Assembly: GCF_034274695.1 (NCBI RefSeq)
Contig: NZ_CP128362.1
Coordinates: forward strand, 4,404,501 to 4,468,500
DNA length: 64,000 nucleotides
Direction: 5' to 3'
Source: Chitinophaga sp. LS1
GTDB taxonomy: Bacteria; Bacteroidota; Bacteroidia; Chitinophagales; Chitinophagaceae
Part shown: piece after piece, positions 8,415 to 58,276 of the stretch
How positions within the stretch are numbered: the first letter of the stretch is position 1
Layout: every line of letters begins with the position of its first letter
Position numbers and translations under genes: made by a program
The notes under the pieces: generated by a model
What the model was told of the DNA's origin: nothing
What the model saw: only the letters and a program-made list of their open reading frames with translations
Database searches by the model: none

Positions 8415-8502
8415 CAGGACGATTGGTTTTATGGACTCTGGGGGTTCCATAGCCACATTTAGCATTCATACTATTTTATTAACCAATTCAATCAGCAAAT
8501 TA

Positions 8503-11901: not shown

Positions 11902-11906
11902 GCGCC

Positions 11907-16152: not shown

Positions 16153-18600
16153 ATGCTTGATAAAAGAATATTTCCCCTGCTTTTGATGCTGATTGCGTTT
16201 CCTATAGCGGGTTGGGCACAGGGAGGAATAATAGGAGGAGCTGCTTCAATGCCAGCTAAAGAAATCGTTCCGTTCGATAAATTAATAACACCGGATGCTA
16301 AAATCAGTCATGGTGTGTTTAACATATACCACATAAAGGAAAAATATTACCTGGAAATCCATGACTCACTTTTAAACAGGCAATTTCATCTTGTCAACCG
16401 TATCCTGCAGGCCTCTGCAGCAGTGGACAAAATAAAGGAGGGCTATGCCGGTGATGAGATGGGTAGTACTCCCGTTGTCTTTTTAAAAGGTCGTGATAAT
16501 AAAATATACCTGAGCAGTTCATTTTCTTTTGACCGATCAATGGATACCACGGTAAACGGCATGGCCAATGTACTGAACAAGAATAGCATTTCGAGTTTTG
16601 ACTTTGCATTTGCTATTTGTGCCTATGGACGGGATAACAAATCGTCTATTATCGATGTAACCGATTTATTTTCCAGCAATAGTCCTTTGCTGGTAGGTCG
16701 TTTAGATTCAACTCCATTCCAGTCTGACAAGTCTTACATTGAAAGAATCCGGTCATTCCCAACGAACCTGGAAATTCAAACGATAAAGACTTATGGCACA
16801 GGAAAAGGGGATAGCACAGCTACATTACGACTTAATACTTCTATTTTATTACTGCCGGCCATTCCAATGAAAGAGCGGTATTTTGATCAGAGGGTGGGTT
16901 ACTTTACACCTTTCAACTATGATTACGACAAAGATCCACAGCAGGCTAAGATGGTATTGAAAATCGATCGCTGGCGGTTGGAGCCTAAACCTGAGGATGT
17001 AGAGAAATATATGCGCGGAGAGTTGGTGGAACCGGCAAAGCCTATTGTATTTTACATTGATCCGGCTACGCCAAAAGTCTGGGTACCCTACCTGATCCAG
17101 GGGGTTAACGACTGGCAGGTAGCTTTTGAAAGAGCGGGTTTTAAAAATGCCATCATAGCTAAAGAAGTACCGGCTGATGATACTGCCTGGAGTATGGATG
17201 ATGCACGATATAGTGTAATCGTATATAAACCATCATTACTGGCAAATGCACAGGGGCCTACCGTCAATGATTATCGTAGTGGTGAAATCATTGAATCGCA
17301 TGTAGGCTGGTATCATAACGTGATGACATTGTTACATAGCTGGTATATGATCCAGGCCGGTGCCAATGATCCGAGAGGACGCCATCAGCAATTTAGCAAT
17401 GAGCTCATGGGGCAATTGATCCGCTTTGTTTCTTCCCATGAAATCGGTCATACCCTTGGTCTTAAGCATAATTTTGGTTCGTCATCAATTGTGCCGGTAG
17501 ATAGTCTTCGTAACAAAAAATGGGTGGAGACACATGGTCATACTCCATCCATTATGGACTACGCACGCTTTAATTATGTAGCACAACCAGAAGATAGTAT
17601 TTCTGATAAAGGTATATTCCCCCGGGTAGGCGATTACGATAAATGGGCAATTGAATGGGGATATAGGGCGTTTCCGCAGGTGGCGGATGCACGGGCAGAA
17701 GCAAAGATATTGTTCCAGATGACAACGGACAGTCTGCGTAACAATAAACGGTTGTATTATGGAGAACAGGCAATATTTGGGTTGATTGATTCCAGGTGTC
17801 AGAATGAGGACCTGAGTGAGGACGTGATGAAGGCCAATGATTATGGAATAAGAAACCTGAAACGGGTGATCACACAACTGCGTGATTGGACAAGTATGCC
17901 AGACGATAAATTTGGCAAAATATCCGGCAACGGCCTGCGTAGGGAGTACTCGGCTTTATTATCACAATTTGCTCAATACCAGACTCATGTCATCAATACA
18001 ATTGGACTTGGATTTTATGAAAATGTGACGGCGACAGACACTACGCCTGTTTTTAGATTAATCCCTAAAGCAAAACAACAGGCCGCAGTTGCCTTTTTAA
18101 ACACACAGATCCTGGCCACCGAACCGGAATGGCTCACACCTGATTATATTATAGACATGGTCTGGCCACCGGATGTAGGGGTACTCACACAGGCTGTAGC
18201 TAATGATGTATTACACCAACTGCTGGTACCTCAGAAACTGATAAATCTGGATAATGCAGAGGCCATGTATGGAGAGAAAACTTATACCCTGCATGATTTC
18301 TTAGCAGATATGAATAAGGGTATATGGAACGACCTGTCTGGTGCGCAAGCCGTAAGTAGTTATCACCGTTTCCTGCAGCAGAATTATATCAGCGCTATGC
18401 TGACGATGATAAAGGATGTGAAAAATGGCGCTGTTTCAGCCACCATTAGAGGGCACATTCAGGGAATAGAAGGGAAGATCCGAAGAATATTACCTATGGT
18501 TAGAGATGAGGAAACCATTTACCATTATAACGACATTTTGTTGCAAATGGAAGCCTTTAAAAACCCCGCTTCCTTAGCATTGGGAATTAATAAGAGGTGA
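16153..18600 (+). CDS. DUF5117/DUF5118-family zinc-dependent metalloprotease, active site intact (locus A)
   Basis: Secreted zinc protease of 815 residues with a signal peptide ending near GWAQ. The order is DUF5118 (about 38-80; PFDKLITPDA), DUF5117 (about 85-270), then the catalytic domain. The catalytic site is HEIGHTLGLKH (429-439), with His429, His433 and His439 as zinc ligands, Glu430 as base, and a downstream Met-turn SIMDYARFNYVAQPED. The family is predicted to be peptidases; no substrate is known to me. It starts 21 bases after the inactive paralogue and is the last gene of locus A. It is followed by a bidirectional terminator near 18760. Confidence 0.9.
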   Translation: MLDKRIFPLLLMLIAFPIAGWAQGGIIGGAASMPAKEIVPFDKLITPDAKISHGVFNIYHIKEKYYLEIHDSLLNRQFHLVNRILQASAAVDKIKEGYAGDEMGSTPVVFLKGRDNKIYLSSSFSFDRSMDTTVNGMANVLNKNSISSFDFAFAICAYGRDNKSSIIDVTDLFSSNSPLLVGRLDSTPFQSDKSYIERIRSFPTNLEIQTIKTYGTGKGDSTATLRLNTSILLLPAIPMKERYFDQRVGYFTPFNYDYDKDPQQAKMVLKIDRWRLEPKPEDVEKYMRGELVEPAKPIVFYIDPATPKVWVPYLIQGVNDWQVAFERAGFKNAIIAKEVPADDTAWSMDDARYSVIVYKPSLLANAQGPTVNDYRSGEIIESHVGWYHNVMTLLHSWYMIQAGANDPRGRHQQFSNELMGQLIRFVSSHEIGHTLGLKHNFGSSSIVPVDSLRNKKWVETHGHTPSIMDYARFNYVAQPEDSISDKGIFPRVGDYDKWAIEWGYRAFPQVADARAEAKILFQMTTDSLRNNKRLYYGEQAIFGLIDSRCQNEDLSEDVMKANDYGIRNLKRVITQLRDWTSMPDDKFGKISGNGLRREYSALLSQFAQYQTHVINTIGLGFYENVTATDTTPVFRLIPKAKQQAAVAFLNTQILATEPEWLTPDYIIDMVWPPDVGVLTQAVANDVLHQLLVPQKLINLDNAEAMYGEKTYTLHDFLADMNKGIWNDLSGAQAVSSYHRFLQQNYISAMLTMIKDVKNGAVSATIRGHIQGIEGKIRRILPMVRDEETIYHYNDILLQMEAFKNPASLALGINKR

Positions 18601-42246: not shown

Positions 42247-42837
42247 ATGACCAATCAGTTTCTATACAATGAAATGGACGAGAATGACCTTTTTCTAAAA
42301 GTAGCAGAAGGCGACGAAACAGCATTTACGATTATCTACCAGCATTTCATGACCTTACTGGCCGGCGCTATGATGCGCCTCCTCCAATCTGAAAAAGACG
42401 TGGAAGAAGCCCTCCAGGAAGCATTCCTGCGAATCTGGCTCAACAGGGACAGCATCCCTGACATCACCAACCCAGGAGGTTGGGTAAGGAAAATAGTGAT
42501 CAATGAATGTTACCGTCTGCTCAGAAAAAGAAAACTGCGTGATCGCCTGCAGGAAGATTTATTCTCCCTCGCAGACGATGACAGCTATGATCATGCCATC
42601 CAACAAGTCGCCTTCAACGAAACTAAACGCATCATTCAGGACGCCGTGGCCGAAATGTCGCCCCGCCAGGCTACTATTTATAACCTGAGCCGCATACAAG
42701 GTAAAACCACCAGAGAAATCGCAGCAACACTGCATCTGAGCAACGACTACGTGAAGAAAACCCTCGCCACCGCACTTGAAAAAGTAAGAAAAAAACTTAT
42801 CGCCGCCGGAAAACTCCTCCCTTCTATATTATTATAG
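42247..42837 (+). CDS. ECF RNA polymerase sigma factor (locus B)
   Basis: FecI-like sigma factor of 196 residues (ATG 42274 is an alternative start nine codons later). Region 2 is about 22-92 (EKDVEEALQEAFLRIWLNRD) and region 4 about 130-180 (MSPRQATIYNLSRIQGKTTR and LHLSNDYVKKTLATALEKV). It heads locus B and by family logic is released by FecR when the STN-bearing SusC is occupied. It shares only family-level similarity with the locus A sigma, so the loci are not a recent duplication. Confidence 0.92.
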   Translation: MTNQFLYNEMDENDLFLKVAEGDETAFTIIYQHFMTLLAGAMMRLLQSEKDVEEALQEAFLRIWLNRDSIPDITNPGGWVRKIVINECYRLLRKRKLRDRLQEDLFSLADDDSYDHAIQQVAFNETKRIIQDAVAEMSPRQATIYNLSRIQGKTTREIAATLHLSNDYVKKTLATALEKVRKKLIAAGKLLPSILL

Positions 42838-42840
42838 AAA

Positions 42841-43001: not shown

Positions 43002-43052
43002 AATATTTTTCCCCCTATACCCCCCTTTTCCATTTCCAAGGGTCAATTAAAT

Positions 43053-44192
43053 ATGGACCACCAAAGATTAGCTGATTTACTAAAAGCCTATGCCGACAAT
43101 TCCATCACCCTGGAAGAAACCGACGAATTGCTTACCTGGCTCGAAACTCATCCCAATCATCCCATGGCGGAAGAAGTGGGAGAGGAATTCCTGCTCGCCA
43201 ATCAGCATGTCACCACTAACCTGGAACCATACCAACACATTGCCAGTAAAATTCTGGCCACCGACCGACCTGTCATCCGCAAGGTCTTCCCCATTAAACG
43301 CATACTATCATATGCAGCTGCCATCGCATTGTTAATGGGTGTATTATTATACAATCTGTTAAAAGAGAACCACCAGCCTGTTATTATTGCTAAAACTATA
43401 ACACCTGCCATCAACGGCGCCATCCTTACCCGTGGTGATGGCCGGCAAATTAACCTCGATACCTTACAGTCCACCAACCTGGGTAAAGAAGAGGGCACAG
43501 CTATTAAATTACACAAAGGACTACTGGCCTATGAAGGTTCGAACAACAGTGGAAACATGGTCTACAATACCATTCACACTCCCAATGGCAGAACCTTTCA
43601 TGTCCTCCTGCAGGATGGCACCGGCGTATGGCTGAATGCCGGTAGCTCCATCACATACCCCGTTGCATTCAACGGTAAAACAAGAGAAGTCAGCATTACA
43701 GGAGAAGTCTATTTTGAGGTTGCCAATGCTGTCAATCAACCATTCAAAGTGAACATCGACGACAGGGCATGGGTACAGGTGCTGGGAACTGCATTTAATA
43801 TCAACGCCTACAAAGATGAACCTTACATCGCCACTACTTTAATTCAAGGTGCTGTAAAGGCTGGCTACCGCCAACAGGAAGCCATTCTGCATCCCGGTCA
43901 GCAGGCGCTCGTCAACGCAGATGGTGCTATGCAGTTAAAAGAAATAGCACCCACCGCCATCACCGCATGGCGCAATGGTCTCTTCCATTTCGATAACGCT
44001 TCCATCCCCGCCGTCATGCGCCAACTGGCCCGCTGGTACGATGTAACCGTCCGCTTCGAAGGTGCTCCATCTACCCGTTCCTTCTCAGGTGAGATCGGCC
44101 GTGATCTCAGTCTGCAGCAGGTACTGGCCATCCTTGAAACAATGAAAATTCATTATAAAATCAACAACAGGGAAATTATTATCACAGAATAA
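43053..44192 (+). CDS. FecR-family anti-sigma factor (locus B)
   Basis: 379 residues: N-terminal cytoplasmic part, one transmembrane helix (about 86-103), FecR domain (about 175-265; TPNGRTFHVLLQDGTGVWLN and ITGEVYFEVANAVNQPF) and C-terminal DUF4974 (about 312-378; LARWYDVTVRFEG). The order sigma-FecR-SusC is the same as in locus A. It is separated from its sigma gene by the tandem repeat tract, so the two may be expressed unequally. Confidence 0.92.
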   Translation: MDHQRLADLLKAYADNSITLEETDELLTWLETHPNHPMAEEVGEEFLLANQHVTTNLEPYQHIASKILATDRPVIRKVFPIKRILSYAAAIALLMGVLLYNLLKENHQPVIIAKTITPAINGAILTRGDGRQINLDTLQSTNLGKEEGTAIKLHKGLLAYEGSNNSGNMVYNTIHTPNGRTFHVLLQDGTGVWLNAGSSITYPVAFNGKTREVSITGEVYFEVANAVNQPFKVNIDDRAWVQVLGTAFNINAYKDEPYIATTLIQGAVKAGYRQQEAILHPGQQALVNADGAMQLKEIAPTAITAWRNGLFHFDNASIPAVMRQLARWYDVTVRFEGAPSTRSFSGEIGRDLSLQQVLAILETMKIHYKINNREIIITE

Positions 44193-44301
44193 AAAACCAA
44201 CCATCAATTTTTTTTCATGCAACATTAAGAAGGGATAATACCGACCGTCAACTAAAATCAGTCCTGCAGAAAACAGGAACAAAGAATTGAATGAATAAAA
44301 A

Positions 44302-44335
44302 AACCGGGGATTCAGATTGGACCCTGCCCCCGGTT
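44302..44335 (-). terminator. hairpin between fecR and susC (locus B)
   Basis: AACCGGGG / CCCCGGTT preceded by a seven-A run on the plus strand: an intrinsic terminator if read on the minus strand. It occupies the same place as the hairpin at 8386 in locus A although the sequences are unrelated. Confidence 0.55.
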
Positions 44336-44400
44336 GATATTCAGGCGATCTCTTAAGGAATTTCTACAGCTTAAAACTACCACCTAAACATTGCAAAAGT

Positions 44401-47400
44401 ATGCAAATTAAGGCGTATTGCGGCTCCGTTTTTAAGGAGAGACCGCTGTTCTCAACCAAAATCATGTTAGTCATGAAACTAACAACTGTTATTTTAATCG
44501 GCGCCTTCCTGCAACTGAGTGCCCATACAAACGCTCAGTTGATCAATTACACCGGGAAGTCCGTAAAGCTTGAAAAAGTATTTGAAGCCATCAAAGAACA
44601 AACAGGCTATGTGTTCTTTTATGATGATGCTGACATTAAAAACGCCGCTCCTGTAAACATACAGTTGTCTGGCGCAACAGTGAACAACGCCCTGCCGCAG
44701 GTTTTGCGAAACCAACCATTTGACTACAACATCCAGGGCAAAACTGTGGTCATCTCCCGCAAGGTAGACTTCTTCCCCATAGAGATGAAAAAAGACGGCC
44801 CTGTCAATGGTGTGGTCATGTCGCCAAACGGCCAGCCACTCGCCGGTGCCACGGTGACTGTAAAAGGGAAACCCGTGAGCGTACTCACCGATGCCCAGGG
44901 ACATTTCTCAATCAATGTTCTGAGCAATGAAACCCTCATTGTCTCTTACATTGGTTATAGCCGTATTGAAATCCCTGTATCCAGGTTAGATGCATTGACA
45001 ATGGGTAAGATGGAGAAAACACCCGGTGGCAACTATACCCGCATGGTATCCGGCGAAATGCTGATCGGCCTCGAACCCGTAGTCACTTCATTAGATGAAA
45101 CCGTTGTAACAGGTTACCAGGTATTACGTAAATCGAGCGTAGCAGGTTCTGTGAGTTCGGTAAAATCTGCGGATCTCTACCTGAATGGTGTGAACAGCAT
45201 CGAACAGGCTTTACAGGGTAAACTCCCCGGTGTAGTTGTTACCAACACTTCCGGTCTTACTGGTGTAAGACAACAAATCCGCGTACGTGGTACCTCTACC
45301 TTATTAGGTTCGCAGGAGCCGGTATGGGTGGTGGATGGTATCATCCAGCAGGATCCCTTGCCATTCAAAGCCACTACCCTGAATTCACTGGGTGATATTA
45401 CGAGAGATAACTTTGATTATATCCGGGACTTCGTAGGCAATTCCATCGGCTGGCTTAACCCTAATGACATCGATGAAATCACAGTACTGAAAGATGCCTC
45501 TGCCACCGCTATCTATGGCGTAAAAGCGGCAAATGGCGTAATCGTGATCAATACCAAGAGAGGGCAATCCGGACCCGCTACCGTTAGTTACTCTCTCAAT
45601 ACCAGCATGACTGACAAAGTAAATTATGACCGCCTGGAGATGATGAACTCCAAACAAAGAGTGGCCGTATCCAAAGAAATTTATGCACGCGGACTTGTAT
45701 CCAACAGTATCAGTAACAATGTCGGCTATGCCGGTGCGCTCTCTCAATACCTGAATAAACAGATTACTGCCGAAGAATTTGATGCCAAAGTAGCAAGAAT
45801 GGAAACGGTCAATACCGACTGGTTCAAACTGCTCTTTCGCAATGCAGTCAGCATGAACCATAACCTGAGCATTTCAGGAGGTAACCAGAACACCCGCTAC
45901 TATGCCAGCTTTGGGTACAATACTACCAATGGTACTGCCATCGGTAATGATAGCAAAGCCTATACTGGTAATATAAATATTAATTCCCGCCTCTCTCCCA
46001 GGCTGAATGTAGGACTGCGTCTCTCTGCCAGCAACAAGGTGATCAACGGCTTCTATAAGGTCAACCCTTATGCATATGCCTCTGGTACCAACAGGGCTAT
46101 TGAAGCATATACTACCGATGGTGATTTGTCTTTTTATACTGCATCCAGTGGGTTTCAGTATAATATCATCAATGAAAGGAACAATACAGGTCTCCGTACC
46201 AGCACGCTCTCTGCCAATACCAGCATGGATGTAAACTATGAAATCATTCCGGGGCTGGTATTTCAGACTTTATTTGGCTACAGTACCAGCAGTACCAATG
46301 GAGAATCTTATGCAACAGAACGTACTGAATATATTGCCGGCATCAGGAATTATGACTATGGTACTGCAAAGTCTACTGATGTTGCGTATATCAACAGTAA
46401 AATGCCTGTAGGCGGAGAACTGAATGATGACGATAGCCGTAACATTACCTGGAACTGGCGTAACAGTCTTTCCTATAGCCATCTCTTTGCACAGAAACAT
46501 GCGCTTACGGCCATGATCGGACAGGAGGCCAACAGCAGCAAGACTACAGGATTGTCTGCACGTACACTGGGTTTCCTCTATGGCAGAGGTAAATCTTTTG
46601 TTAGCCTGCCATTAACCTATACTGCAAATGGGACCGCTAATCCACTCTTACTTGAAAATACGCATGTATACACAGATAACCTGGTAAATAATGTAGGTCT
46701 CTACGCAACTGTCAATTATGTATACGACAACCGTTATGTTGTCAATGCCAGTGTACGTTCTGATGCATCTAACCGTTTTGGTCAGTTTACAGGGGAAAAA
46801 TTCAACCCTGTATGGGCAGGTGGTGTGCGCTGGAATGCTGGCAGAGAAAAATGGTTTGACCACAGTGGCTGGATGTCTGATATGAGTGTGCGGTCCAGCT
46901 ACGGTTTTCAGCGTAACATTGTAGCTGGTATCAGCCCTGACCTGATTATCAAAACACCTACAGGTGCCGCCAGTGCTTCAGTAGACCAGTTTACCGGTGA
47001 GTCGATGCTGACTTTAAGCAAATTACCGTATGCGGATCTGCGCTGGGAGAAGAACACTTCTGTTAACCTGGGATTTGACCTCAGCATTTTCCGTGGCAGG
47101 ATACAAACTTCATTTGAATATTACTGGAAGAAAGGCAAAGACCTCATTACCCAATTGGCAGTGCCCGTAGAATACGGGGTTGAAACCATGCCGATCAATG
47201 GTGGTTCTATGATCAACCACGGCCTGGAAGTAAGCGCCAGCTTCGTACCCATCCGTACCCGTGACTTTACCTGGACGGTAAGTGCAAATACAGCTAAGAA
47301 CTTCAACCAGGTTAAAAAGACAGGGACGCAGTTGAATTCTTACACTACGGCTGCCAGCGGCACTTTGTACAAAGAAGGTTATCCCGTATCCGGTTTCTGG

Positions 47401-48039
47401 GCCTTTGATTTTAAAGGTATAAACCCTGAGAATGGTTTACCAATCATCAATCTTGCCGTACCTAAAGGTGCCGATTCTTTGAATGATCCTACCAGTTATA
47501 TGCGCTATATGGGTAAGTTAGATCCATTGATTACAGGTGGCCTGGGTATGAGCTTCCGGTATAAGCGTTTTACTCTTTTTACAGACCTTTACCTGCAGGT
47601 AGGTGGCAAGCGATTCCTGAAAGCGGCGTATCGATTAAATCCGTTGTTGCCAAGAGAAGACGAAAACCTCTCTGCAGAACTGCTGCAAAGATGGACGCCC
47701 GATAATACAACTTCCAATTTTCCCGGACTGCCTGATAATAGAATTCCTTATACAAAGTTGCCTAATGGCAAGACTGCCCTGGTATATGATATGTACAACT
47801 ACAGTTCTGCACGTGTAGTAAACGCCAGCACACTGAGATGTAACAATCTGTCTATGGCCTATAGTTTCCCTGAACAGGTAATAAAAAAACTGAAGTGCAA
47901 AACGCTGAACATGTCGGGTGGTGTATCGCAGCTATTCTCTATTGTGAGCAGAGACTATAAGGGAAGGGATGCCGAAGTGGCTACCGGTGCGCAGCCCCGT
48001 ACCCGCACCTATACCTTATCCGCCTCCGTTAGTTTTTAA
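44401..48039 (+). CDS. SusC/RagA-type TonB-dependent receptor with STN domain (locus B)
   Basis: Importer of 1212 residues. The long N-terminus (MQIKAYCGSVFKERPLFSTK) before the signal peptide is usual in Chitinophagia SusC proteins. Domains: STN (about 48-118; KLEKVFEAIKEQTGYVFFYD), CarboxypepD_reg-like (about 135-200; VVMSPNGQPLAGATVTVKG), plug with DIDEITVLKDASATAIYGVK, and barrel ending ASVSF. The STN domain predicts signalling to the FecR upstream. It is followed by SusD after 18 bases. Four or five proteases downstream point to peptide import. Confidence 0.93.
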   Translation: MQIKAYCGSVFKERPLFSTKIMLVMKLTTVILIGAFLQLSAHTNAQLINYTGKSVKLEKVFEAIKEQTGYVFFYDDADIKNAAPVNIQLSGATVNNALPQVLRNQPFDYNIQGKTVVISRKVDFFPIEMKKDGPVNGVVMSPNGQPLAGATVTVKGKPVSVLTDAQGHFSINVLSNETLIVSYIGYSRIEIPVSRLDALTMGKMEKTPGGNYTRMVSGEMLIGLEPVVTSLDETVVTGYQVLRKSSVAGSVSSVKSADLYLNGVNSIEQALQGKLPGVVVTNTSGLTGVRQQIRVRGTSTLLGSQEPVWVVDGIIQQDPLPFKATTLNSLGDITRDNFDYIRDFVGNSIGWLNPNDIDEITVLKDASATAIYGVKAANGVIVINTKRGQSGPATVSYSLNTSMTDKVNYDRLEMMNSKQRVAVSKEIYARGLVSNSISNNVGYAGALSQYLNKQITAEEFDAKVARMETVNTDWFKLLFRNAVSMNHNLSISGGNQNTRYYASFGYNTTNGTAIGNDSKAYTGNININSRLSPRLNVGLRLSASNKVINGFYKVNPYAYASGTNRAIEAYTTDGDLSFYTASSGFQYNIINERNNTGLRTSTLSANTSMDVNYEIIPGLVFQTLFGYSTSSTNGESYATERTEYIAGIRNYDYGTAKSTDVAYINSKMPVGGELNDDDSRNITWNWRNSLSYSHLFAQKHALTAMIGQEANSSKTTGLSARTLGFLYGRGKSFVSLPLTYTANGTANPLLLENTHVYTDNLVNNVGLYATVNYVYDNRYVVNASVRSDASNRFGQFTGEKFNPVWAGGVRWNAGREKWFDHSGWMSDMSVRSSYGFQRNIVAGISPDLIIKTPTGAASASVDQFTGESMLTLSKLPYADLRWEKNTSVNLGFDLSIFRGRIQTSFEYYWKKGKDLITQLAVPVEYGVETMPINGGSMINHGLEVSASFVPIRTRDFTWTVSANTAKNFNQVKKTGTQLNSYTTAASGTLYKEGYPVSGFWAFDFKGINPENGLPIINLAVPKGADSLNDPTSYMRYMGKLDPLITGGLGMSFRYKRFTLFTDLYLQVGGKRFLKAAYRLNPLLPREDENLSAELLQRWTPDNTTSNFPGLPDNRIPYTKLPNGKTALVYDMYNYSSARVVNASTLRCNNLSMAYSFPEQVIKKLKCKTLNMSGGVSQLFSIVSRDYKGRDAEVATGAQPRTRTYTLSASVSF

Positions 48040-48057
48040 TTGTCAAACAGTACGAAC

Positions 48058-49527
48058 ATGAAGCAACTTATTATATATCTTTTGCCCATCTGCCTGCTAT
48101 TCAGCTCCTGCAAGAAGTTCCTGAAGGAGACGAGTCCGGACGAGATCAAGCCTACTACTACTGATGATCTGTATGCACTGATGATCAGTGATGCCTATCC
48201 TTATACAGCTAACCTGGAAGATTTTTCTGACATACTCACGGATGATGTGCGTAGTTACGGCATGCCCCGTAAATCGACAGGAGAACAGAACACCACTTAT
48301 TCCAGCTATTACCAGAATGGACAAGGTGTATTCAAATATGATGCTGAAGAGCTGGATGGTTCCGAGGGTACAGCAGCGACGGCACTGAATGCCTGGGCAA
48401 GATATTACAGCAAAATTAAAGGCTGTAATATCATTATTGACTATATAGACAATGTGTCGGGAACACAGAAGGACAAGGATGCACTGGTAGGACAATCCTT
48501 GCTGCTGAGAGCGTTTTATTACTTTAAGCTGCTGCAGTTGTATTGTGCGCCATATGTTGCCAGTGCAGCATCTACGCCTGGTGTGCCATTGATCTTGTCG
48601 ATGCAGGTGAGTGACGAACACATTGGCCGCAGTACCCTGCAGGAGACTTTTGACCAGGTAGAAAAAGACCTTACTCAGGCAGCGACATTGCTGGAAGCAA
48701 ACTATAAAACGCCCAACGCTTATCGCGTAGGTTACATAGCCGCCTATGCATTACTCTCCAGGGTATACCTGTATAAAGGGGAGTGGGACAAAGCGATCGA
48801 CTATGCTGAAAAAGTGCTGGCGGAACGTTCCCAGTTGACTGATATGAGCCTCTCTTCTTCCTCCGGTTCATTATATATATATGATCAGTCACAGAGCGCA
48901 GAAGTGATTTTTCAATATGGGTCTAATCCCAGTGGTGTTACCACGTTTTTCCCTTCTCCGATTAGCTATTCGGGCATGCATGCACCTTACGAAGTAGCTG
49001 ATGAACTGGGCCAGCTGTATGAAAATAATGACCTGCGGTATAAGTTTTACTTTTATAAAGTTACCGTTTCAGGAGCTAGTTATAACACCCGTAGTTCCAA
49101 GATTGGTGTAAACAGTAAAGGCGGTGATAAAGGGATCCGTGTAGCAGAAATGTACCTCAATGCAGCGGAAGGACTGGCCCGCCGCTTCAAGTCCGGCGGC
49201 CAGGAAGCCGATCGTACCAGCGCATTGCAATACCTGAATACCCTGCGACAAAACAGGTTTTCTTCTCCATATACCACGATCGATATACAGAATGCTGACT
49301 CGCTTATCAGTTTTGCACTGGCAGAAAGAAGAAGAGAGCTATGCCTTGAAGAAAACTTCAGATGGGCAGATATCAAGCGGTTGGGATTGTCTGTGACTCA
49401 CAATTTCATTGATGCAGACGGGAATAGCACCATCTATACACTGGCGGCAAACAGTCCGTTGTATGCATTACCTATTCCTGTTACTGCTTTAGAGAGAAAT
49501 AATAAACTGACTCAAAACGCCCGTTAA
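48058..49527 (+). CDS. SusD/RagB-family lipoprotein (locus B)
   Basis: 489 residues from ATG 48058 (an in-frame TTG at 48040 would put six polar residues before the signal peptide). Lipobox FSSC (Cys18). TPR-like helices and the RagB/SusD C-terminal region (IRVAEMYLNAAEGLARRF; AERRRELCLEENFRWADIKR) are present. It pairs with the SusC upstream as the surface lid. The next lipoprotein gene starts 2 bases after its stop. Confidence 0.92.
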   Translation: MKQLIIYLLPICLLFSSCKKFLKETSPDEIKPTTTDDLYALMISDAYPYTANLEDFSDILTDDVRSYGMPRKSTGEQNTTYSSYYQNGQGVFKYDAEELDGSEGTAATALNAWARYYSKIKGCNIIIDYIDNVSGTQKDKDALVGQSLLLRAFYYFKLLQLYCAPYVASAASTPGVPLILSMQVSDEHIGRSTLQETFDQVEKDLTQAATLLEANYKTPNAYRVGYIAAYALLSRVYLYKGEWDKAIDYAEKVLAERSQLTDMSLSSSSGSLYIYDQSQSAEVIFQYGSNPSGVTTFFPSPISYSGMHAPYEVADELGQLYENNDLRYKFYFYKVTVSGASYNTRSSKIGVNSKGGDKGIRVAEMYLNAAEGLARRFKSGGQEADRTSALQYLNTLRQNRFSSPYTTIDIQNADSLISFALAERRRELCLEENFRWADIKRLGLSVTHNFIDADGNSTIYTLAANSPLYALPIPVTALERNNKLTQNAR

Positions 49528-49529
49528 AA

Positions 49530-50462
49530 ATGAAATTAGCAATCTATATATTCCTTTTGCTGGCATTGGTTGCCTGTAAGAAGCAGGAAGAAACGCTCAC
49601 CCCTTCTGCGAGCCTGGTTTATACATTACCACAAGGTAGTCATGATTATGATACGACTATCCTGGATTATTATAAAAAGTATGGCACCTACCTATTGTAT
49701 CAATTCACAGACAGGGACGCCTACTGGACGCCAACCGGCTGGAAAAATGCAAGGTATGATTCTGCTGGTGCCTACTGGAATGTGGGGTTCCTGGCAATAG
49801 AAGCAGAGGAAACGTATGTAGGCAAACAACTGGAAGTAATACAGCGCCTTTGGTTCAGGTATTATTCCGATAAGTTCCTGAAGCAGTTTTTACCTGTGAA
49901 GATCCTGCTCTGTTCTAAAATAGACTCTTCTTATCTGGGGTATGATTTTTCTACGACCCCAACTACTTTCTACCTGAAGTATAAGGAGGTTGCCGCATGG
50001 TACAACTATGACAATATCTCTGTTAATTTTGGTAATGCCAATGTAGAAAATATGACAGCGAAAGATTCCGGTTATTTCATCTGGAAAGTATCGCAGGCTT
50101 TTATGGCAGAAATCTTCGCAACAAAACCTGTTGCTGCTACAGACGATTTTACAAAGCTTACCAGCTATACAACGAAGTTTACCACCCAGGCAGCGGCTTA
50201 TGCGGCAGGATCCATTTCTACCTATTACAGCGCATCTGCACAGAATGACTGGGAAAAATTTATGCTGGCGATGGTGAGTTGTTCCGAAACCATGCTAAAC
50301 CAGGCAGAAGCAGCATCATCCTACAGCAATAAAGGTATTCTCAACCCCCTCAAGGATACCAGTGGGAAAATAAAAAAGCGGTATAACATCGTACGGAATT
50401 ATTTCATCACAAACTATAATGTAGACCTGCAGGCCATCGGCAATGCCGCTATCCCGCAATGA
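49530..50462 (+). CDS. Mx1-type putative metallopeptidase lipoprotein with lost HExxH motif (locus B)
   Basis: Lipoprotein of 310 residues, lipobox LVAC (Cys16). The overall pattern matches the putative zinc-binding metallopeptidases (Peptidase_Mx1-like) that often follow SusD: an N-terminal helical region, the segment before the active site, and the C-terminal IKKRYNIVRNYFITNYNVDL. Where family members have HEFAHxxH, this protein reads QAFMAEIF (189-196), so zinc ligands and catalytic Glu are absent. The family assignment is from recall of the pattern and is less certain than for the neighbouring proteases. If right, it is a third inactive protease in this window, retained as an intact gene. 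Confidence 0.65.
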   Translation: MKLAIYIFLLLALVACKKQEETLTPSASLVYTLPQGSHDYDTTILDYYKKYGTYLLYQFTDRDAYWTPTGWKNARYDSAGAYWNVGFLAIEAEETYVGKQLEVIQRLWFRYYSDKFLKQFLPVKILLCSKIDSSYLGYDFSTTPTTFYLKYKEVAAWYNYDNISVNFGNANVENMTAKDSGYFIWKVSQAFMAEIFATKPVAATDDFTKLTSYTTKFTTQAAAYAAGSISTYYSASAQNDWEKFMLAMVSCSETMLNQAEAASSYSNKGILNPLKDTSGKIKKRYNIVRNYFITNYNVDLQAIGNAAIPQ

Positions 50463-50472
50463 TTGAAGAAAG

Positions 50473-52857
50473 ATGACGACTTTAAAGCGATTAATCCTTA
50501 CCTGCATGTTCTATGCAGCCCCCCTGTCATTGTCAGCACAGTCTGCTGATAGTATTCCATCTATGGAAAGCTTTATTAAACCGACGGCTGTGCGTCACCA
50601 GGGAATGTGTAATATTTATATACAGGAAGGGCGCTACCTCATGGAAGTGCCGGATAGTATTAATGGACGTGATATCCTCTCTGCTATTACGATTGTAAAA
50701 GGTGCTGCACAGGTAGAGCGTAAGCCCGAAAAGCGATTCGGTTATGCAGGAGATGCCGTGTTTGAAAGAGTGATCCGCTTTGTGAAAGCAGGGGACAAAC
50801 TCAATATCGTACAACCTATATTTCAGAATGCACAGGATTCAACCACCATCTATTACAAGGTAGCTAACAATACTTTGATGCCTGTATTATTGTCTTTTCC
50901 TGTAAAGGCAAAGAGTGATCATGCTGTACTGATTGATTTTACAGAGACACTTACCGGGGATGGAGATCTCTTTGCATTGAAAGGAGCAAAGAAAGAGTTG
51001 AGCTTAGGTAATCTTGAAGCAGACAAGTCTTCCATCTTAAGTATTCGTTGCTTTCCTGCTAACATGAATTTCCGGTCTTTGCGTACTTATGGTCCTGGAG
51101 GGGAAAGTAAAAATTCTTCTGCATGGGAGGTCGGTGCTTCCTGGGTATTATTGCCGCTGCACCCTATGCCGCAGCGCTTTGAGGATAGCAGGGTAGGTTA
51201 TTTTACAAAGACAATCAGAGACTACGATAACTATGCAATTAATCCCAGGATGGTACAGTTGACTATCCGCTGGGACTTGCACCCTAAGGCGGCAGACGTG
51301 CCCCGTTACCTGGCAGGAGAGTTGGTAGAACCAGAACATCCGATTGTGTTTTATATCGATAAGCATACGCCTGCTTACCTGGTTCCTTATTTTATAAAAG
51401 GGGTGAATGCCTGGCAACAGGCATTTGAAAAAGCTGGTTTCAGACATGCCATTTATGCATTGCCGGAACCATCTGAAGAAGATAGTACCTATGCCATGGA
51501 AGATGTCAGGTTCTCTTATATCTCTTACAAAGGTTCTCCTATTGAGAATGCCTATGGTCCCAATGTAAGCGATCCCCGGTCCGGTCAGATTATCAGTAGC
51601 AGAGTCGCGGTATTTCACAGTGTGTTAGACCTGATACAGCGCTGGTATTTTTCTATGTGTGCAGCGACCGATACAGCAGCTCGTCGTTATCCGCTGAGCC
51701 ATGATGTGATGGGCCGGCTGATACAGAATGTCATCACTCATGAGGTAGGGCATACGTTGGGGTTAAAACACAACTTTGGTGGCAGCGCATTTTATGAAGT
51801 AGATAGTATTCGTAAGCCAGCTTATGTGGCAAAGAATGGTTTTGGGGCATCCATAATGGATTATATGCGATTCAATTATACTGCACAGCCGGAAGATCAT
51901 ATGCCAGACACCCTGTTGGTACCAGGTATTGGTGTGTATGATTTGTTTGCAATTGAATGGGGGTATCGTTACCTGCCCCAATTTACAACACCAAAAGCGA
52001 CTTCCGACTCATTGGAACGCTGGGTGACGGAAAAGCGAAAAGATATTCGCCTTCGCTTTGGTAGAGAGAATGACCAGATGGATCCACGTTATCAATCGGA
52101 AGATGTAGGGAGTGACCCTGTAAAAGCCGGCAAACTGGGTATTAAAAACCTCCAGCTTACCATGCAGCATTTTAATGAATGGATGAAGACGTCTGAGAAT
52201 GATCCTGCTCATTACAGACAGCAATACAGGAGCCTGTTAGGCCGATATCATAATTACCTGTTGCATGCGCTGGTTGAGGTAGAGGGACGGTATAATAACA
52301 GGGAAGCAAAGCCTGAGGAAAACCTCCCCTCTTACGAGCCGGTACCCAGGGCAAGACAGGAAGCTGCTGTTGCTTTCCTGGAAGAATACTTGTTGGAGTA
52401 TCCCAAATGGTTGTTTGATACAGCTATTATGAAGAAAGCGGCATTCGAATTTGACAGGGATGGTATGGAGCCTTTCAATATTACTTTGTCCCGTTTGATC
52501 ATGTCATACAGCCATATAAGTGATAACCTGGCGGTCAATCCAAAGGGCTATACTACAAAGGAACTGTACGAAAGATTATATACAGTGATATTCAGTAAAC
52601 CGGCTACCAGTGAATTCAATAGGGAGCTGCAGCGTACATTACTCATAAAATCATTGTCAATAGTAGCATCATCTTCAGGTTTTTCAGATGATGTAAGTGT
52701 ACAGCTGCTGGCTATAATTGATAAGATAGGTACAAAAAGCAGAAAAGAATTACAGGTAAGTACTGATGTGCTCCTGAAAGCACATTGGGAGTCACTGGCA
52801 GATATGATTACCATTTGGGAAAACGGAAATGCTTCCTCACTGGCAGCAGGTAAATAA
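50473..52857 (+). CDS. DUF5117/DUF5118-family zinc-dependent metalloprotease, active site intact (locus B)
   Basis: Secreted protease of 794 residues with a signal peptide ending near SLSAQ. After DUF5118/DUF5117 regions (about 35-270) comes the catalytic domain with HEVGHTLGLKH (423-433): His423, 427 and 433 bind zinc and Glu424 is the base. The Met-turn region reads ASIMDYMRFNYTAQPEDH. It is the orthologue-like counterpart of the gene at 16153. It starts 10 bases after the Mx1-like gene and is followed after 13 bases by its inactive paralogue. Confidence 0.9.
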   Translation: MTTLKRLILTCMFYAAPLSLSAQSADSIPSMESFIKPTAVRHQGMCNIYIQEGRYLMEVPDSINGRDILSAITIVKGAAQVERKPEKRFGYAGDAVFERVIRFVKAGDKLNIVQPIFQNAQDSTTIYYKVANNTLMPVLLSFPVKAKSDHAVLIDFTETLTGDGDLFALKGAKKELSLGNLEADKSSILSIRCFPANMNFRSLRTYGPGGESKNSSAWEVGASWVLLPLHPMPQRFEDSRVGYFTKTIRDYDNYAINPRMVQLTIRWDLHPKAADVPRYLAGELVEPEHPIVFYIDKHTPAYLVPYFIKGVNAWQQAFEKAGFRHAIYALPEPSEEDSTYAMEDVRFSYISYKGSPIENAYGPNVSDPRSGQIISSRVAVFHSVLDLIQRWYFSMCAATDTAARRYPLSHDVMGRLIQNVITHEVGHTLGLKHNFGGSAFYEVDSIRKPAYVAKNGFGASIMDYMRFNYTAQPEDHMPDTLLVPGIGVYDLFAIEWGYRYLPQFTTPKATSDSLERWVTEKRKDIRLRFGRENDQMDPRYQSEDVGSDPVKAGKLGIKNLQLTMQHFNEWMKTSENDPAHYRQQYRSLLGRYHNYLLHALVEVEGRYNNREAKPEENLPSYEPVPRARQEAAVAFLEEYLLEYPKWLFDTAIMKKAAFEFDRDGMEPFNITLSRLIMSYSHISDNLAVNPKGYTTKELYERLYTVIFSKPATSEFNRELQRTLLIKSLSIVASSSGFSDDVSVQLLAIIDKIGTKSRKELQVSTDVLLKAHWESLADMITIWENGNASSLAAGK

Positions 52858-52870
52858 ATAATATTGGCAT

Positions 52871-55048
52871 ATGAGAAGACCACTGATAACAGTTTGTCTG
52901 CTATTGAATGTAGCACTGACTACTGCACAAAATAAATCACCGCAATCCTATAAAGAGTTTTATAAGGATGGCATGAAGAAAATAGAAGGAGATTATTCTA
53001 TTTACAGGAAAGATAAACACTATTACCTGGAAATACCAGACAATGCACTGGGAAAAGATGTATTGGTAATGGGATATGTAAGGAAAGGAAATTCATCTGC
53101 AATAGCAAAATCAGCAGGTATTATCCGGTTCAGTAAAGGTATCAGCAACTCGTTGAATGTAACCCGTATTAGTTTTAATGAAGGTGCCAGCGGTGATATC
53201 AATGGGGATATGGAACCAGTAATAAAACGGTCGGGTTTATTGCCTGTCAGTTACGGTTATTCAATAGTAGCGACAGGAAAGAAAGGTGGTTATATTATCG
53301 AGATTTCCCGTCAGATTCTTGAAGGAGGAGATTGGTTTGCATTTCCTGATTTGACTTTCCTGAGTCATCCTGATCCGGAGCGCTCGGTGGTGGAAGATAT
53401 TAAAACTACAGAAAAGGCAGTACGGTTTGCAGTAGAACGGTCTCAGACAGATTTTAACAAAGACTTTGTATCAGGCAGGGATATGGACAATGCCAATACT
53501 TACGAAATAGAACTTGTATTCCAGCAATTGCCTGACGAAAAGATGCCACGAAAACTGGCAGAGAAAGCATCTCCATTTGAAACATTTAGTTTCATGGACT
53601 ATGGCAGAACAGCTTATACCGCCCGCAAAACATCTTTTATTCATAAATGGAATATCAATAATAAAATTAGTGTAGCACTAGATCCGAATATTCCTGCTTT
53701 TTTCAGAAAGTATATTGAGCAGGGTGTACTGGCATGGAATGTAGCTTTTCATGGAGATGTATTAAAGATTGTACAGGATCAGCAGTTAAGCCCTGGGTAT
53801 ATACTGGTGAACTGGGGTAATACTTATAATTCACCCATCGTTGCGACCGTTGAGCATCCTGAAACAGGTGAAATACTCGCAGCCCGTATTAATGTGACCG
53901 AAGCGGTAACGGATCAACTGATGTTACGATACTTGCTGCAATGTGGCGCCAATGATAACAGAATTATAAAAGATATCAGGAACCCGGAGATCCAGGGTGA
54001 GATTTTAAGGTGGCTCATAACCCAAACCGTAGGTGAAGCATTGGGCTTACGTGCGAACCTGAGCGGCAGTGCTGCTTATACCACTGCACAACTACGGAAT
54101 CCCGCATGGATGAAGACGCATGCTTTCTCGGCTTCTATCATGGATGACATAGAATTTAACTATGTAGCTCAACCCGAAGATCACGTACCTGTGAGTACAC
54201 TGATGCCGGGCATTGGTGAAGCAGACATTGCTGCGATCGAATGGGGATACGGACAAGGGCCGGCACCTACGTACTTGCCGGAAGATTCTTTGAACCCGCT
54301 TACACAGCATTATGACCTTGCTTCTGATAAGATCATGGCGTCAACACTTGCCATTAAAAATTTGCAGCGCGTGTTCCTGCAACTGGATACTATCAGCAAA
54401 CAACTGGATGGTACGGAAGACCTTTTTAAAAGCAATGGATCCCTGTATGGTGCGGCATTGATCAGCTATGAGAAATACTGTATGGATGTGTCAGCGCTGA
54501 TTGGTGGGGTATGCCGCAAGCCACTTTCGCTGGGAGAAGAAAAGATAAAGGCAGATGCTGCGGTACAAAAACAGGCATTGGCTTTCTTACAACAATATGT
54601 GTTCAGCGGCCCTGCTGCGTGGATGAAAATAAATGGTACACCTGGTGGTCGTGTGATCAGCGTAGAGGAGTCATTTACCCACATGCAGATTGCTATTCTG
54701 AAATCATTTATTGACATAAGAAAACTTGACCAGGTGGCAGATGCAAATGAGATTTTCAATTTCATTGATAAAGAAGTGTTCTTTTCCTTCAGTAAAGAAA
54801 AAGTGCTGACTACAGAAGAACGTACGATGCAGGCAAAATTTGTATACGAGCTTGCCCAGGCTACTTACAAAGCTAATATCAGTACTGGTTTAAATGATGC
54901 CAATGTACTGCTGCATTATTATATGATCACGACGATGAAGAAACTGGAAGATATGGCAAATACGCATCCGGATATGCTCACCAGGGAAAACTTCCGCCTG
55001 ATGAAAATGAAAGCAGAACATGAATTTTTTCATAAAATAAAAGCCTGA
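52871..55048 (+). CDS. DUF5117-family metalloprotease homologue lacking the zinc site (locus B)
   Basis: 725 residues, signal peptide ending ALTTAQ. It is shorter at the N-terminus than the active paralogue. The active-site segment reads QTVGEALGLRA (385-395) in place of HEVGHTLGLKH, so every zinc ligand and the Glu are replaced, whereas SASIMDDIEFNYVAQPEDH is kept. The substitutions differ from those in the inactive gene of locus A (IQVGSSLGLLP), which points to separate losses or long divergence. The frame is intact. It ends 2 bases before the thioredoxin-fold gene. Confidence 0.87.
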   Translation: MRRPLITVCLLLNVALTTAQNKSPQSYKEFYKDGMKKIEGDYSIYRKDKHYYLEIPDNALGKDVLVMGYVRKGNSSAIAKSAGIIRFSKGISNSLNVTRISFNEGASGDINGDMEPVIKRSGLLPVSYGYSIVATGKKGGYIIEISRQILEGGDWFAFPDLTFLSHPDPERSVVEDIKTTEKAVRFAVERSQTDFNKDFVSGRDMDNANTYEIELVFQQLPDEKMPRKLAEKASPFETFSFMDYGRTAYTARKTSFIHKWNINNKISVALDPNIPAFFRKYIEQGVLAWNVAFHGDVLKIVQDQQLSPGYILVNWGNTYNSPIVATVEHPETGEILAARINVTEAVTDQLMLRYLLQCGANDNRIIKDIRNPEIQGEILRWLITQTVGEALGLRANLSGSAAYTTAQLRNPAWMKTHAFSASIMDDIEFNYVAQPEDHVPVSTLMPGIGEADIAAIEWGYGQGPAPTYLPEDSLNPLTQHYDLASDKIMASTLAIKNLQRVFLQLDTISKQLDGTEDLFKSNGSLYGAALISYEKYCMDVSALIGGVCRKPLSLGEEKIKADAAVQKQALAFLQQYVFSGPAAWMKINGTPGGRVISVEESFTHMQIAILKSFIDIRKLDQVADANEIFNFIDKEVFFSFSKEKVLTTEERTMQAKFVYELAQATYKANISTGLNDANVLLHYYMITTMKKLEDMANTHPDMLTRENFRLMKMKAEHEFFHKIKA

Positions 55049-55050
55049 CT

Positions 55051-56142
55051 ATGAAGAATATCATATATTCCTTACTGCTGGCATGCGCGTTTAGTCCGCT
55101 GATGGCCCAGCACAGGGAGATCGCTTTTGAACATGCACCGTTACCTGATCTGCTGGCCAGATCAGCAAAAGAACATAAACTTGTATTTGTAGATTGTTAT
55201 ACTACCTGGTGTGGTCCTTGCAAAGAGATGTCGACCTATGTATTCACAAAAGATACTGTAGCCGACTTTTTTAACACGCAGCTGATCTCTTTAAAGCTGG
55301 ATATGGAAAAGGGAGAAGGACCGGAAGTGGGCAAAAAATACCGGGTAGGAGCATATCCGTCATATCTCTTATTAAATGAGAAAGGAGAGCTGGTGTATAA
55401 ATTCGTTGGAGGCATGCCAGCAGAAGAATTTCTCAGAAAGGTATCCGAAGGGATGGACCCTGATAACAGGGTGGCACAGATCTTCCGCAGGTATGAGTCG
55501 GGAGATCGCAGCCCGGCGTTAATGCGGGAATACATCGTATTAACTTTAAGGAACAAGGAAATAAAGCGGGGAAAGGAACTCAATATAGAATACACCCAAT
55601 CTCTTACCGCGCAGCAGAAGCTCCTGCCTGAAAACTGGTTTCTTTATGGAGAGAACCAGTTTTCCCGCGAGCTCTCTGATATGCATAGCCCGGACTTTAC
55701 ATACCTGGTAGAACACTGGCAGGACTTTGCCAAAGTAAAAGGCATTGATTCTATCAATCACAAGATCTCCGGCGTATTCCGTAAACTTACCAGCTATTGC
55801 CTGCAAGGTTATTACCAGAAAGATATCGGGTATCAAAAAGAAGACTTTGTTGTCTATCGTAAGCAAATCAAACACACACAGGTGCCAGATAAAAAAGACC
55901 TGATGATCATGATGGACATTGCCGAAGCAGCCTGTCAGGGAGATGCACAGCTTGTTACCAACCTGATTGCAGATCATATAGCCCAATTCAGTAGTCCGAA
56001 TATGGATATTATATTTGCTTACCTGTCTTTCATTCCATCCTATAAAAAGAAGGAATATCCGCGTTGGGAAGAAATCATTCATACCGTAGCCGCTCATTCT
56101 CAAAACCATTTCCTCGTCGATCATGTTAAATCGTATTTTTAA
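55051..56142 (+). CDS. thioredoxin-fold protein with WCGPC motif (locus B)
   Basis: 363 residues: signal peptide (1-19), thioredoxin-like domain (about 22-140) with active site WCGPCK (Cys54 and Cys57) and the cis-Pro region AYPSYLLLNEKGELV, then a helical C-terminal domain of about 200 residues of unknown role. It is expected to act in the periplasm as a disulfide reductase or isomerase. Placement between two protease genes suggests it helps secreted cargo fold or keeps substrate disulfides reduced; that is inference. Its 3' end overlaps the S9 peptidase by 20 bases. Confidence 0.88.
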   Translation: MKNIIYSLLLACAFSPLMAQHREIAFEHAPLPDLLARSAKEHKLVFVDCYTTWCGPCKEMSTYVFTKDTVADFFNTQLISLKLDMEKGEGPEVGKKYRVGAYPSYLLLNEKGELVYKFVGGMPAEEFLRKVSEGMDPDNRVAQIFRRYESGDRSPALMREYIVLTLRNKEIKRGKELNIEYTQSLTAQQKLLPENWFLYGENQFSRELSDMHSPDFTYLVEHWQDFAKVKGIDSINHKISGVFRKLTSYCLQGYYQKDIGYQKEDFVVYRKQIKHTQVPDKKDLMIMMDIAEAACQGDAQLVTNLIADHIAQFSSPNMDIIFAYLSFIPSYKKKEYPRWEEIIHTVAAHSQNHFLVDHVKSYF

Positions 56143-58276
56143 AACGGGCCTGCTGGTCTTACTTGCTGGTAGTCTGTATGCTCAGGATACTTATTATGAT
56201 GCCCCAAATCTGGCCAAACAGATGGGATCTCTGACCGTTATTCCTTTTTTTGTAAAGGGTACTGATAAATGCTGGTTTAGTGCGGACAAGGACTATTACC
56301 TGGTGGATGCGAAGCGCGGCACCCGTCAGTGTATTTCTGATAAAAAATACCTGGGGGGCTTGCTACAGGAGTTATTGCACCAACCTGTGGATACGGCAGC
56401 TATCAAAGTTGAGATGCCTGGTAGCAATGATATGGGAATCTATTATAAAGAAGCCCGTTATTCTTATAGCCTGGTGAATGGGAAACTGGTCCCCGCCATC
56501 CCCCATAATTATCCTCATTCTGGCTGGCGTAATGGTTTATCACCAGATAAGAAATGGCAGCTGGTGGCGAAGAACCATAACCTGTTTCTCCGGAAAAATT
56601 CGGATAGTTCTATGTTAAAGTTGTCTTTTGATGGGGAGTTATATCACTCTTTTAACATGAATGATGCTGACACTGGTACTTTGCGCGAATCAAATACAGA
56701 GGCGGTATGGATAAAAGGAACTTCAAAATTTTACGTAGTCAGAAAGGATCGGCGTAAGGTTGGTACAATGACCGTCGTGCATAGTTTGTCTACTCCCCGC
56801 CCAAGGGTAGAGACGTATAAATATGAACTGCCGGGCGATAAGGATGTGACGCAGTATGAGTTATACCTGGGCGATGCTTCGGAAGGGACCTTTCTGCCTG
56901 TAAATACGGGCGATTGGAAAGACCAGGAGCTGGAAGTGCTGTATGGCGGTGCTAAGGTGTATTTCCTGCGGAAGAAGCGTACAAGGGATGAGATGGACTT
57001 ATGTGCAGTAGATTGGAAAGGTACAGTGCAGGTACTGATCCATGAGGTGAGTCGTCCTTTTATTAATGATGATGTATTCTCCGCTGCAATTCTCAATGAT
57101 GGTAAAGATATTCTCTGGTGGTCAGACCGGAGTGGCTGGGGCCATTATTATTTATATGATGGTGCCGGTCATTTGCAGGGTGCAGTTACAGCGGGAGACT
57201 GGACAGCGGGTAAGTTACTGAGAGTAGATACGACTTCAAAAAGACTATACTTTTATGGCTATGGCAGGGAGCAGGGTATCAATCCTAACTACTCCTTTGT
57301 GTACGCCGTAAATTTCGATGGCAAAGGGTTGCGGCTGCTCACGCCTGAAAATGCCAACCATGAGGTGTTCATAGCGCCTGGCAATCAGTTCTTTGTTGAC
57401 AACTATTCGCGGATAGACATGGATCCCCGCACTACTATCAGAAGTACCAGTAGCAACTGGCAGATGGAAATCTGGAAACCAGACCTGAGCCGGTTGTACA
57501 AATATGGCTGGAAAAGACCGGAGATGTTCACCATCAAAGCTGCCGATGGGGTAACGGATATTTATGGACTGATGTGGAAGCCGTTTGACTTTGACAGTAC
57601 TAAAAAGTACCCCATCATTTCACAGGTATATCCGGGACCGCAGACAGAAACAGTATGGTCCTCGTTTACAGTGCTGGACAGGTATAATAATACCGCCCTG
57701 GCACAGACGGGGAGTATCGTGGTCTGTATGGGGCACAGGGGTGGATCGCCTTACCGCAATAAAGCATATCATACATATGGTTATGGCAACCTCCGTGACT
57801 ATGCGTTGGACGATGACAGGCATGGGATCATCCAACTGGCTGCCAGATATCATTTTATTGATACCACCCGTGTCGGTATCTTTGGTCATTCCGGCGGGGG
57901 AATGATGGCGGTAGCGGCAATATGTACCTACCCTGATTTTTATAAGGTAGCAGTGGCCTCCTCCGGTAATCATGATAATAATATATATAACCGTACCTGG
58001 GGTGAAACCTTTCAGGGAATCGATTCCGGTTTTGCGTATCATGTAGCGCTGAACCAGGCACTCGCTTCGAAATTGAAAGGGCATTTATTATTAGTGACCG
58101 GAGAGGTAGATACGAATGTGCATCCGGCGGCTACCTATAGAATGGTGAATGCGTTGATACAGGCGGGAAAAGACTTTGACATGCTCGTATTGCCGGGGCA
58201 AAGTCATACTTACGAAGACACTTACAAAGCATATTTTCAACAACGGCTAAGACAATACTTTAAGTTCCACTTATGA
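56123..58276 (+). CDS. S9-family dipeptidyl peptidase (DPP-IV-like) (locus B)
   Basis: Serine peptidase of 717 residues. Signal peptide (ending SLYAQ), an N-terminal beta-propeller (about 40-480) and an alpha/beta-hydrolase domain (about 490-717). The catalytic triad is visible: Ser590 in GHSGGG, Asp663 in GEVDTNVHP and His695 in GQSHTY. DPP-IV-like enzymes clip dipeptides from N-termini, a fitting last step after endoproteolysis by the metalloprotease upstream. The family's oxyanion Tyr region (QVYPGPQTE) is present. It closes locus B before a strong terminator. Confidence 0.92.
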   Translation: MLNRIFKTGLLVLLAGSLYAQDTYYDAPNLAKQMGSLTVIPFFVKGTDKCWFSADKDYYLVDAKRGTRQCISDKKYLGGLLQELLHQPVDTAAIKVEMPGSNDMGIYYKEARYSYSLVNGKLVPAIPHNYPHSGWRNGLSPDKKWQLVAKNHNLFLRKNSDSSMLKLSFDGELYHSFNMNDADTGTLRESNTEAVWIKGTSKFYVVRKDRRKVGTMTVVHSLSTPRPRVETYKYELPGDKDVTQYELYLGDASEGTFLPVNTGDWKDQELEVLYGGAKVYFLRKKRTRDEMDLCAVDWKGTVQVLIHEVSRPFINDDVFSAAILNDGKDILWWSDRSGWGHYYLYDGAGHLQGAVTAGDWTAGKLLRVDTTSKRLYFYGYGREQGINPNYSFVYAVNFDGKGLRLLTPENANHEVFIAPGNQFFVDNYSRIDMDPRTTIRSTSSNWQMEIWKPDLSRLYKYGWKRPEMFTIKAADGVTDIYGLMWKPFDFDSTKKYPIISQVYPGPQTETVWSSFTVLDRYNNTALAQTGSIVVCMGHRGGSPYRNKAYHTYGYGNLRDYALDDDRHGIIQLAARYHFIDTTRVGIFGHSGGGMMAVAAICTYPDFYKVAVASSGNHDNNIYNRTWGETFQGIDSGFAYHVALNQALASKLKGHLLLVTGEVDTNVHPAATYRMVNALIQAGKDFDMLVLPGQSHTYEDTYKAYFQQRLRQYFKFHL

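Follow-up and report, generated by a model that had tools for sequence, protein, structure and literature searches.

Why should a bacterium keep, directly behind an intact metalloprotease gene, a full-length paralogue without any catalytic residue? This question is raised by a locus, here called locus B, in Chitinophaga sp. LS1, whose genome is a single contig of 8.67 Mb. The window analysed, meaning the whole stretch of DNA that was examined, has a length of 64,000 nucleotides (contig NZ_CP128362.1, positions 4,404,501 to 4,468,500) and contains a second pair of the same kind in locus A.

Locus B occupies positions 42247-58276 of the forward strand, on which all its genes lie. It begins with an ECF sigma factor (42247..42837; PF04542 43.4 bits, PF08281 39.7 bits) and a FecR-type anti-sigma factor (43053..44192; PF04773 51.3, PF16344 67.0 bits), followed by a SusC-type TonB-dependent transporter with an STN domain (44401..48039; PF07715 59.1, PF07660 34.7 bits) and a SusD-type lipoprotein (48040..49527; PF14322 104.4, PF07980 59.0 bits). 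With these four genes side by side, locus B qualifies as a SusCD import locus under ECF/FecR control. Behind them are encoded an Mx1-like lipoprotein without HExxH (49530..50462), the active protease ACT-B (50473..52857) and its inactive neighbour INA-B (52871..55048), which share the DUF5118-DUF5117-DUF4953 architecture, a thioredoxin-like protein with CGPC (55051..56142; PF00085 43.6 bits), and an S9/DPPIV-type peptidase with GHSGGG (56123..58276; PF00326 105.8, PF00930 110.7 bits). The spacing of ACT-B and INA-B is 14 bp. By eye, signal-like N-termini can be noted on ACT-B, INA-B, the thioredoxin-like protein and the S9 peptidase, and a lipobox-like LVAC in the Mx1-like lipoprotein; these proteins are probably exported.

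The frames starting at 49530, 50473 and 52871 lie exactly where an earlier note on this DNA had placed them, and its description of an active protease followed by an inactive one holds. In ACT-B, HEVGHTLGLKH (51739-51771) and SIMDY (51850-51864) are intact, and the corresponding segments of INA-B are QTVGEALGLRA (54023-54055) and SIMDD (54134-54148). Both exceed the Pfam cut-offs for PF16313, which carries the Pfam name 'Met-zincin' (306.6 bits for ACT-B, 163.6 bits for INA-B), PF17148 or DUF5117 (138.4 and 59.8 bits), and PF17162 or DUF5118 (36.7 and 39.5 bits). Locus A (6293-18600, forward strand) consists of an ECF sigma factor (6293..6889; PF08281 47.3 bits), FecR (7135..8280; PF04773 61.6 bits), SusC (8431..11901; PF07715 58.6, PF07660 53.6 bits), SusD (11907..13358; PF14322 119.2, PF07980 110.6 bits), and a pair in which the inactive copy comes first. 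These are INA-A (13474..16131), with IQVGSSLGLLP at 14884-14916 and TIMED at 14995-15009, and ACT-A (16153..18600), with HEIGHTLGLKH at 17437-17469 and SIMDY at 17548-17562; both also pass the three cut-offs. The genome G046 contains both loci as well.

Accordingly, HExxHxxGxxH together with the Tyr of the Met-turn, which we take to be the metzincin site, is present in ACT-B and ACT-A and missing from INA-B and INA-A. As judged from these residues, INA-B and INA-A are members of the DUF5117/DUF4953 family by descent, not as enzymes. The two pseudoproteases differ at all four replaced ligands, as had been claimed (I, Q, S, P in locus A; Q, T, E, A in locus B). A further change, absent from the earlier note, is common to both: the Met-turn Tyr has become Asp. 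The unlike letters would by themselves be weak evidence of separate origin, because orthologues of INA-B vary among themselves at the same positions, and one of them (L129) retains the first His. Among the matches listed, the motif is absent in all 120 homologues of INA-B (120 of 2706) and in 18 of the 120 homologues of INA-A (120 of 3551), the remaining 102 being active. A search of solved structures with ACT-B returned only two matches, with E of about 0.9, and one with the family profile returned a single match, ECXA, with E of 0.12. No paper naming DUF5117, DUF4953, PF16313 or PF15890 was found in the open-access literature, most subscription journals being outside the reach of this search.

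The pair recurs elsewhere. The order SusC, SusD, Mx1-like lipoprotein, ACT, INA, thioredoxin-like protein and S9 peptidase was found in the window and in nine other loci (L042, L043, L044, L045, L046, L047, L124, L128 and L129) and is kept across several genera; this recurrence with conserved gene order goes beyond the earlier note. No ECF match was obtained in L045, and the ECF gene of L047 lies on the opposite strand. The ACT-B gene of L045 (9171-11622) is broken into two frames that overlap; the genome concerned, G047, is listed as 80% complete. Another copy is present in the same-species genome G053, seen as matches only. Within the genus, clear orthologues of INA-B occur in 8 of 79 genomes, and PF16313 proteins occur in all 79. 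The two genes are inherited together: among 28 examined loci with a lipoprotein of the 49530 type, ten contain both the type-B ACT and INA, 18 contain neither, and none contains one alone. The inactive gene is thus found at homologous loci, and where it is missing, in 18 of these 28, its active partner is missing too. Seven of the 18 (L125, L126, L127, L130, L136, L139 and L230) each have one DUF5117 gene, active and of a different type. In L125, L126, L127 and L230, the order is SusC, SusD, Mx1-like lipoprotein, thioredoxin-like protein and S9 peptidase, and then one active DUF5117 gene of another clade replaces the pair.

Among the loci examined, inactive copies are seen only in tandem. All 51 lone genes with longer flanks, 36 of them with more than 3 kb on both sides, are active, as are those of a further 40 loci with flanks of about 1.5 kb (at least one of which is a repeat). 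The 31 tandem loci (32 rows minus L062, a repeat of L048) include 20 with exactly one inactive copy, 11 active/active and none inactive/inactive; they were partly sought with inactive queries, and many were fetched via an inactive homologue. Among 16 tandems chosen by the nearness of two matches before their motifs were inspected, five proved to be mixed (Fisher p 0.0005); because each orthologous locus counts separately, the tandem p-values are not per event. Gene spacing also differs. Gaps range from -97 to 36 bp in mixed pairs and from 30 to 886 bp in active/active tandems (p 6.5e-6 over loci, 0.001 with one value per origin), the overlaps being based on the first start codon. In the first copy of one active/active tandem (L227, 6987-9476), SIMDF replaces SIMDY.

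The phylogeny indicates that dead copies arose more than once. IQ-TREE trees were quick searches with SH-aLRT support only and with the motif columns excluded; the 37-row and 57-row trees carry no outgroup. On the 57-row tree, at least six changes between active and inactive are required, and in each of six groups the inactive protein stands beside the active one of its own operon: INA-B (group B, SH-aLRT 99), INA-A with L224 and L225 (A, 96), L048 with L241 (C, 92), L226 (D, 98), L242 and L243 (E, 98), and L066 (F, a polytomy of three rows with support 100). The 52-row tree, built without groups D and E and L241, requires at least four. A single clade of all inactive proteins is rejected by the AU test (p 2.1e-10, 52-row set), and several origins of inactive copies in the family are therefore well supported by these trees; six would be the minimum from one quick tree. 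The partner proteins of L242 (10968-13424, REIGHSLGLRD) and L243 (7533-10037, KTVGLTLGLRE) look half-degenerate with SIMDY intact, and perhaps they are young pseudoenzymes.

For the two pseudoproteases of the window, the phylogenetic check suggested in the earlier note favours two separate inactive branches. Each joins the active protein of its own locus, and the sisterhood of INA-B and ACT-B has an outgroup-rooted support of only 85 on the 52-row tree; rejection of a common clade is only moderate, and FastTree dissents. The AU test of one clade for INA-A and INA-B gives p 0.0216 on 37 rows and 0.0248 on 57 rows, and p 0.273 on 52 rows, where the long branches P0047 and P0016 are included. In the FastTree tree of 126 rows, the inactives of locus B branch outside the rest of the family, the outgroup excepted. 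Quartet site patterns favour pairing by locus in 2129 of 2200 quartets, although the quartet of the L048 pair and locus B is nearly tied (16 sites by activity, 15 by locus). Among other groupings, INA-A with L048 (AU p 0.0143) and INA-B with L066 (p 1.3e-8) were rejected; INA-B with L048 gives p 0.0758, or 0.0231 after L241 is added. These trees thus support, without proving, that the two window pseudoproteases arose separately. P0047 itself is an inactive DUF5117 protein of 758 aa (RAVGSVLGLKE, SIMDN), the cluster of which represents 870 contigs; it joins INA-B on a long branch and has 27% identity to it. No close copy of P0047 was found in genome contigs (best 28%), and viral contigs gave no match.

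The lipoprotein 49530, in which QAFMAEIF (50094-50117) takes the place of the motif, had been described as a third degenerate protease. Its placement in the peptidase family is borne out, PF15890 being passed narrowly (26.9 bits, cut-off 25.6), although it falls below the curated cut-off of the NCBIfam model TIGR04549, LP_HExxH_w_tonB (28.2 vs 75 bits). Profile-profile comparison by hhalign of a 120-member 49530 alignment with 21 canonical members gave probabilities of 97.5-98.9%; QAFMAEIF falls opposite HEFxHILH, where the alignment opens a gap of one residue within the motif, and ligands are retained in neither register. HExxH occurs in none of 120 homologues among the matches listed (120 of 183, the window's own included), 100 of which match TIGR04549 and 88 PF15890 at E 0.001; as far as these homologues tell, the loss in this branch is old. 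Neither 49530 nor its family profile matched a solved structure. Canonical-type Mx1 genes adjoin SusD in all 22 fetched loci, 21 of which have HExxHxxH. The 49530 type stands in the same position directly beside SusD, so the catalytic and non-catalytic branches share one operon slot; unlike the SusD-linked metallohydrolase lipoproteins of TIGR04549/PF15890, to which its profile is similar, this type lacks HExxH. Since it stands behind SusD with or without the pair, it need not belong to the pairing and is more aptly regarded as an old branch of the Mx1 family that is not catalytic. Such a lipoprotein may bind substrate at the cell surface as a partner of SusCD. In a Prevotellaceae MAG (L065, 2016-3077), a weak Mx1-like match of 30.7 bits lies directly 5' of an active DUF5117 gene.

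On balance, we favour the view that the tandem pair of locus B, encoded in a SusCD-type import operon, forms a periplasmic hetero-oligomer in which one protease subunit is dead. The locus would most likely import protein or peptide. Its Met-zincin would have been doubled in tandem, one copy, INA-B, turning into a non-catalytic subunit, and ACT-B and INA-B would most likely assemble in the periplasm. The dead protomer would add substrate binding, stability or geometry, mainly through the DUF5118/DUF5117 half, which is conserved, and its active partner would cut the substrate; the thioredoxin-like protein may reduce the imported polypeptide and the S9 peptidase may trim it further. In its favour stand the recurrence of the operon order, the joint inheritance of both genes, the tree groupings by operon, the restriction of inactive copies to tandems, their close spacing, low dN/dS, the conserved N-terminal half of INA-B and the core residues lost alike in INA-A and INA-B. 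It counts against this view that the family does not need a dead partner, since 11 of the 31 tandems are active/active and 51 genes stand alone, and that ACT-B and INA-B show no complementary loss.

A less likely, though still reasonable, reading is that the dead protein works alone as a periplasmic polypeptide-binding or chaperone-like holder, which would hold substrate after its import for ACT and further enzymes and form no stable complex. The distribution of conservation is consistent with such a role. In 40-residue blocks over residues 31-280 of ACT-B, the mean is 0.62-0.72 for INA-B and 0.64-0.74 for ACT-B; over 271-550, it is 0.55-0.68 vs 0.72-0.83. In our reading, constraint on INA-B has shifted to the DUF5118/DUF5117 half and away from catalysis. 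The lone active relatives and the core residues kept in ACT also agree with a holder. Complementary loss between the partners was sought and not found: INA-B has lost 36 residues that are conserved in lone proteases and kept by ACT-B, the reverse holds for one, and the active protein therefore shows no sign of dependence on the inactive one. However, a holder acting alone sits poorly with the close gene spacing and with inactive copies never occurring away from an active neighbour (none among the 51 lone genes).

It is improbable, in our estimate, that the dead protein acts as an inhibitor, decoy or folding partner, a negative regulator restraining the active protease until substrate arrives. 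The known roles of pseudopeptidases include the regulation of active cousins (PMC11266112), and the co-inheritance and close spacing of ACT and INA would suit this role; however, no special feature pointing to inhibition was found, and active/active tandems and lone genes manage without a dead partner.

Ongoing decay, with a redundant tandem copy drifting to loss, is very unlikely. Inactive proteins do evolve faster than their active partners, since in each of 20 comparisons the INA-INA distance between two genomes exceeds the ACT-ACT distance between them, and the half-degenerate look of the L242 and L243 proteins can be cited in its favour. Yet the ratio is only 1.21-1.67, no broken INA frame occurs among the examined loci, and gene order is held across genera. 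By their substitution patterns, the mixed pairs are under purifying selection. At unsaturated dS, dN/dS between the window and L042 is 0.165 for INA-B and 0.117 for ACT-B, and between the window and L041 it is 0.137 for INA-A and 0.074 for ACT-A; in the remaining comparisons, which give most values, dS is above 1 or saturated. The earlier preference for a functional unit over decay is thus upheld by full-length frames, the pair order in nine other loci, low dN/dS and the matching topology of the two locus-B trees, active and inactive; decay of INA-A was likewise judged unlikely.

The sampled active proteins share 97 invariant residues. All nine INA-B rows retain 26 of these and all ten INA-A rows retain 49, and 12 are missing from every row of both groups (4.5 expected, p 3.8e-5), including E424, H427, H433, Y464, R466, E543 and H598. 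That the dead copy catalyses by other residues, or binds metal or another ligand at the changed site, is hardly credible, since Y464, R466, E543 and H598 are gone along with the ligands and the replacement residues vary freely between orthologues, the partly conserved pocket region of INA-A being the one point in its favour.

The preferred reading, an active/dead heteromer, has a precedent in the M16B peptidases. As described in two reports (PMC11266112; PMC12731061), heteromeric M16B enzymes (mitochondrial processing peptidase and the bacterial SPH2681/SPH2682, TTHA1264/TTHA1265 and AlbE/AlbF) consist of two homologous subunits, only one of which has the zinc motif, and the bacterial subunits are encoded by neighbouring genes. 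The window pairs are likewise homologous neighbours with and without a zinc motif; however, they belong to an unrelated sequence family, with no M16 model among the Pfam matches (E up to 1), and their dead subunit apparently arose several times within one family. By this analogy, the DUF5117 pair would work as M16B heteromers do. The proteins annotated as 'zinc-dependent metalloprotease' with PF16313, PF17148 and PF17162 share the domains, the SusCD neighbourhood and, in active copies, HExxHxxGxxH and the Met-turn; the lone members examined are active (51 of 51), whereas the window loci keep a dead paralogue in tandem.

More tentatively, at least six separate tandem duplications may each have ended as one catalytic and one dead subunit side by side, by a repeatable evolutionary route from homo-oligomer to active/dead hetero-oligomer, giving a heteromeric class of Met-zincins in polypeptide-import loci. 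Active/dead metallopeptidase pairs are already known in M16B; DUF5117 would, if this is true, be a second, unrelated family with repeated origins. Its pairs would then be natural replicates for asking what selects dead subunits, in comparison with lone and active/active relatives, and a protein family bearing DUF names only would gain a testable hypothesis.
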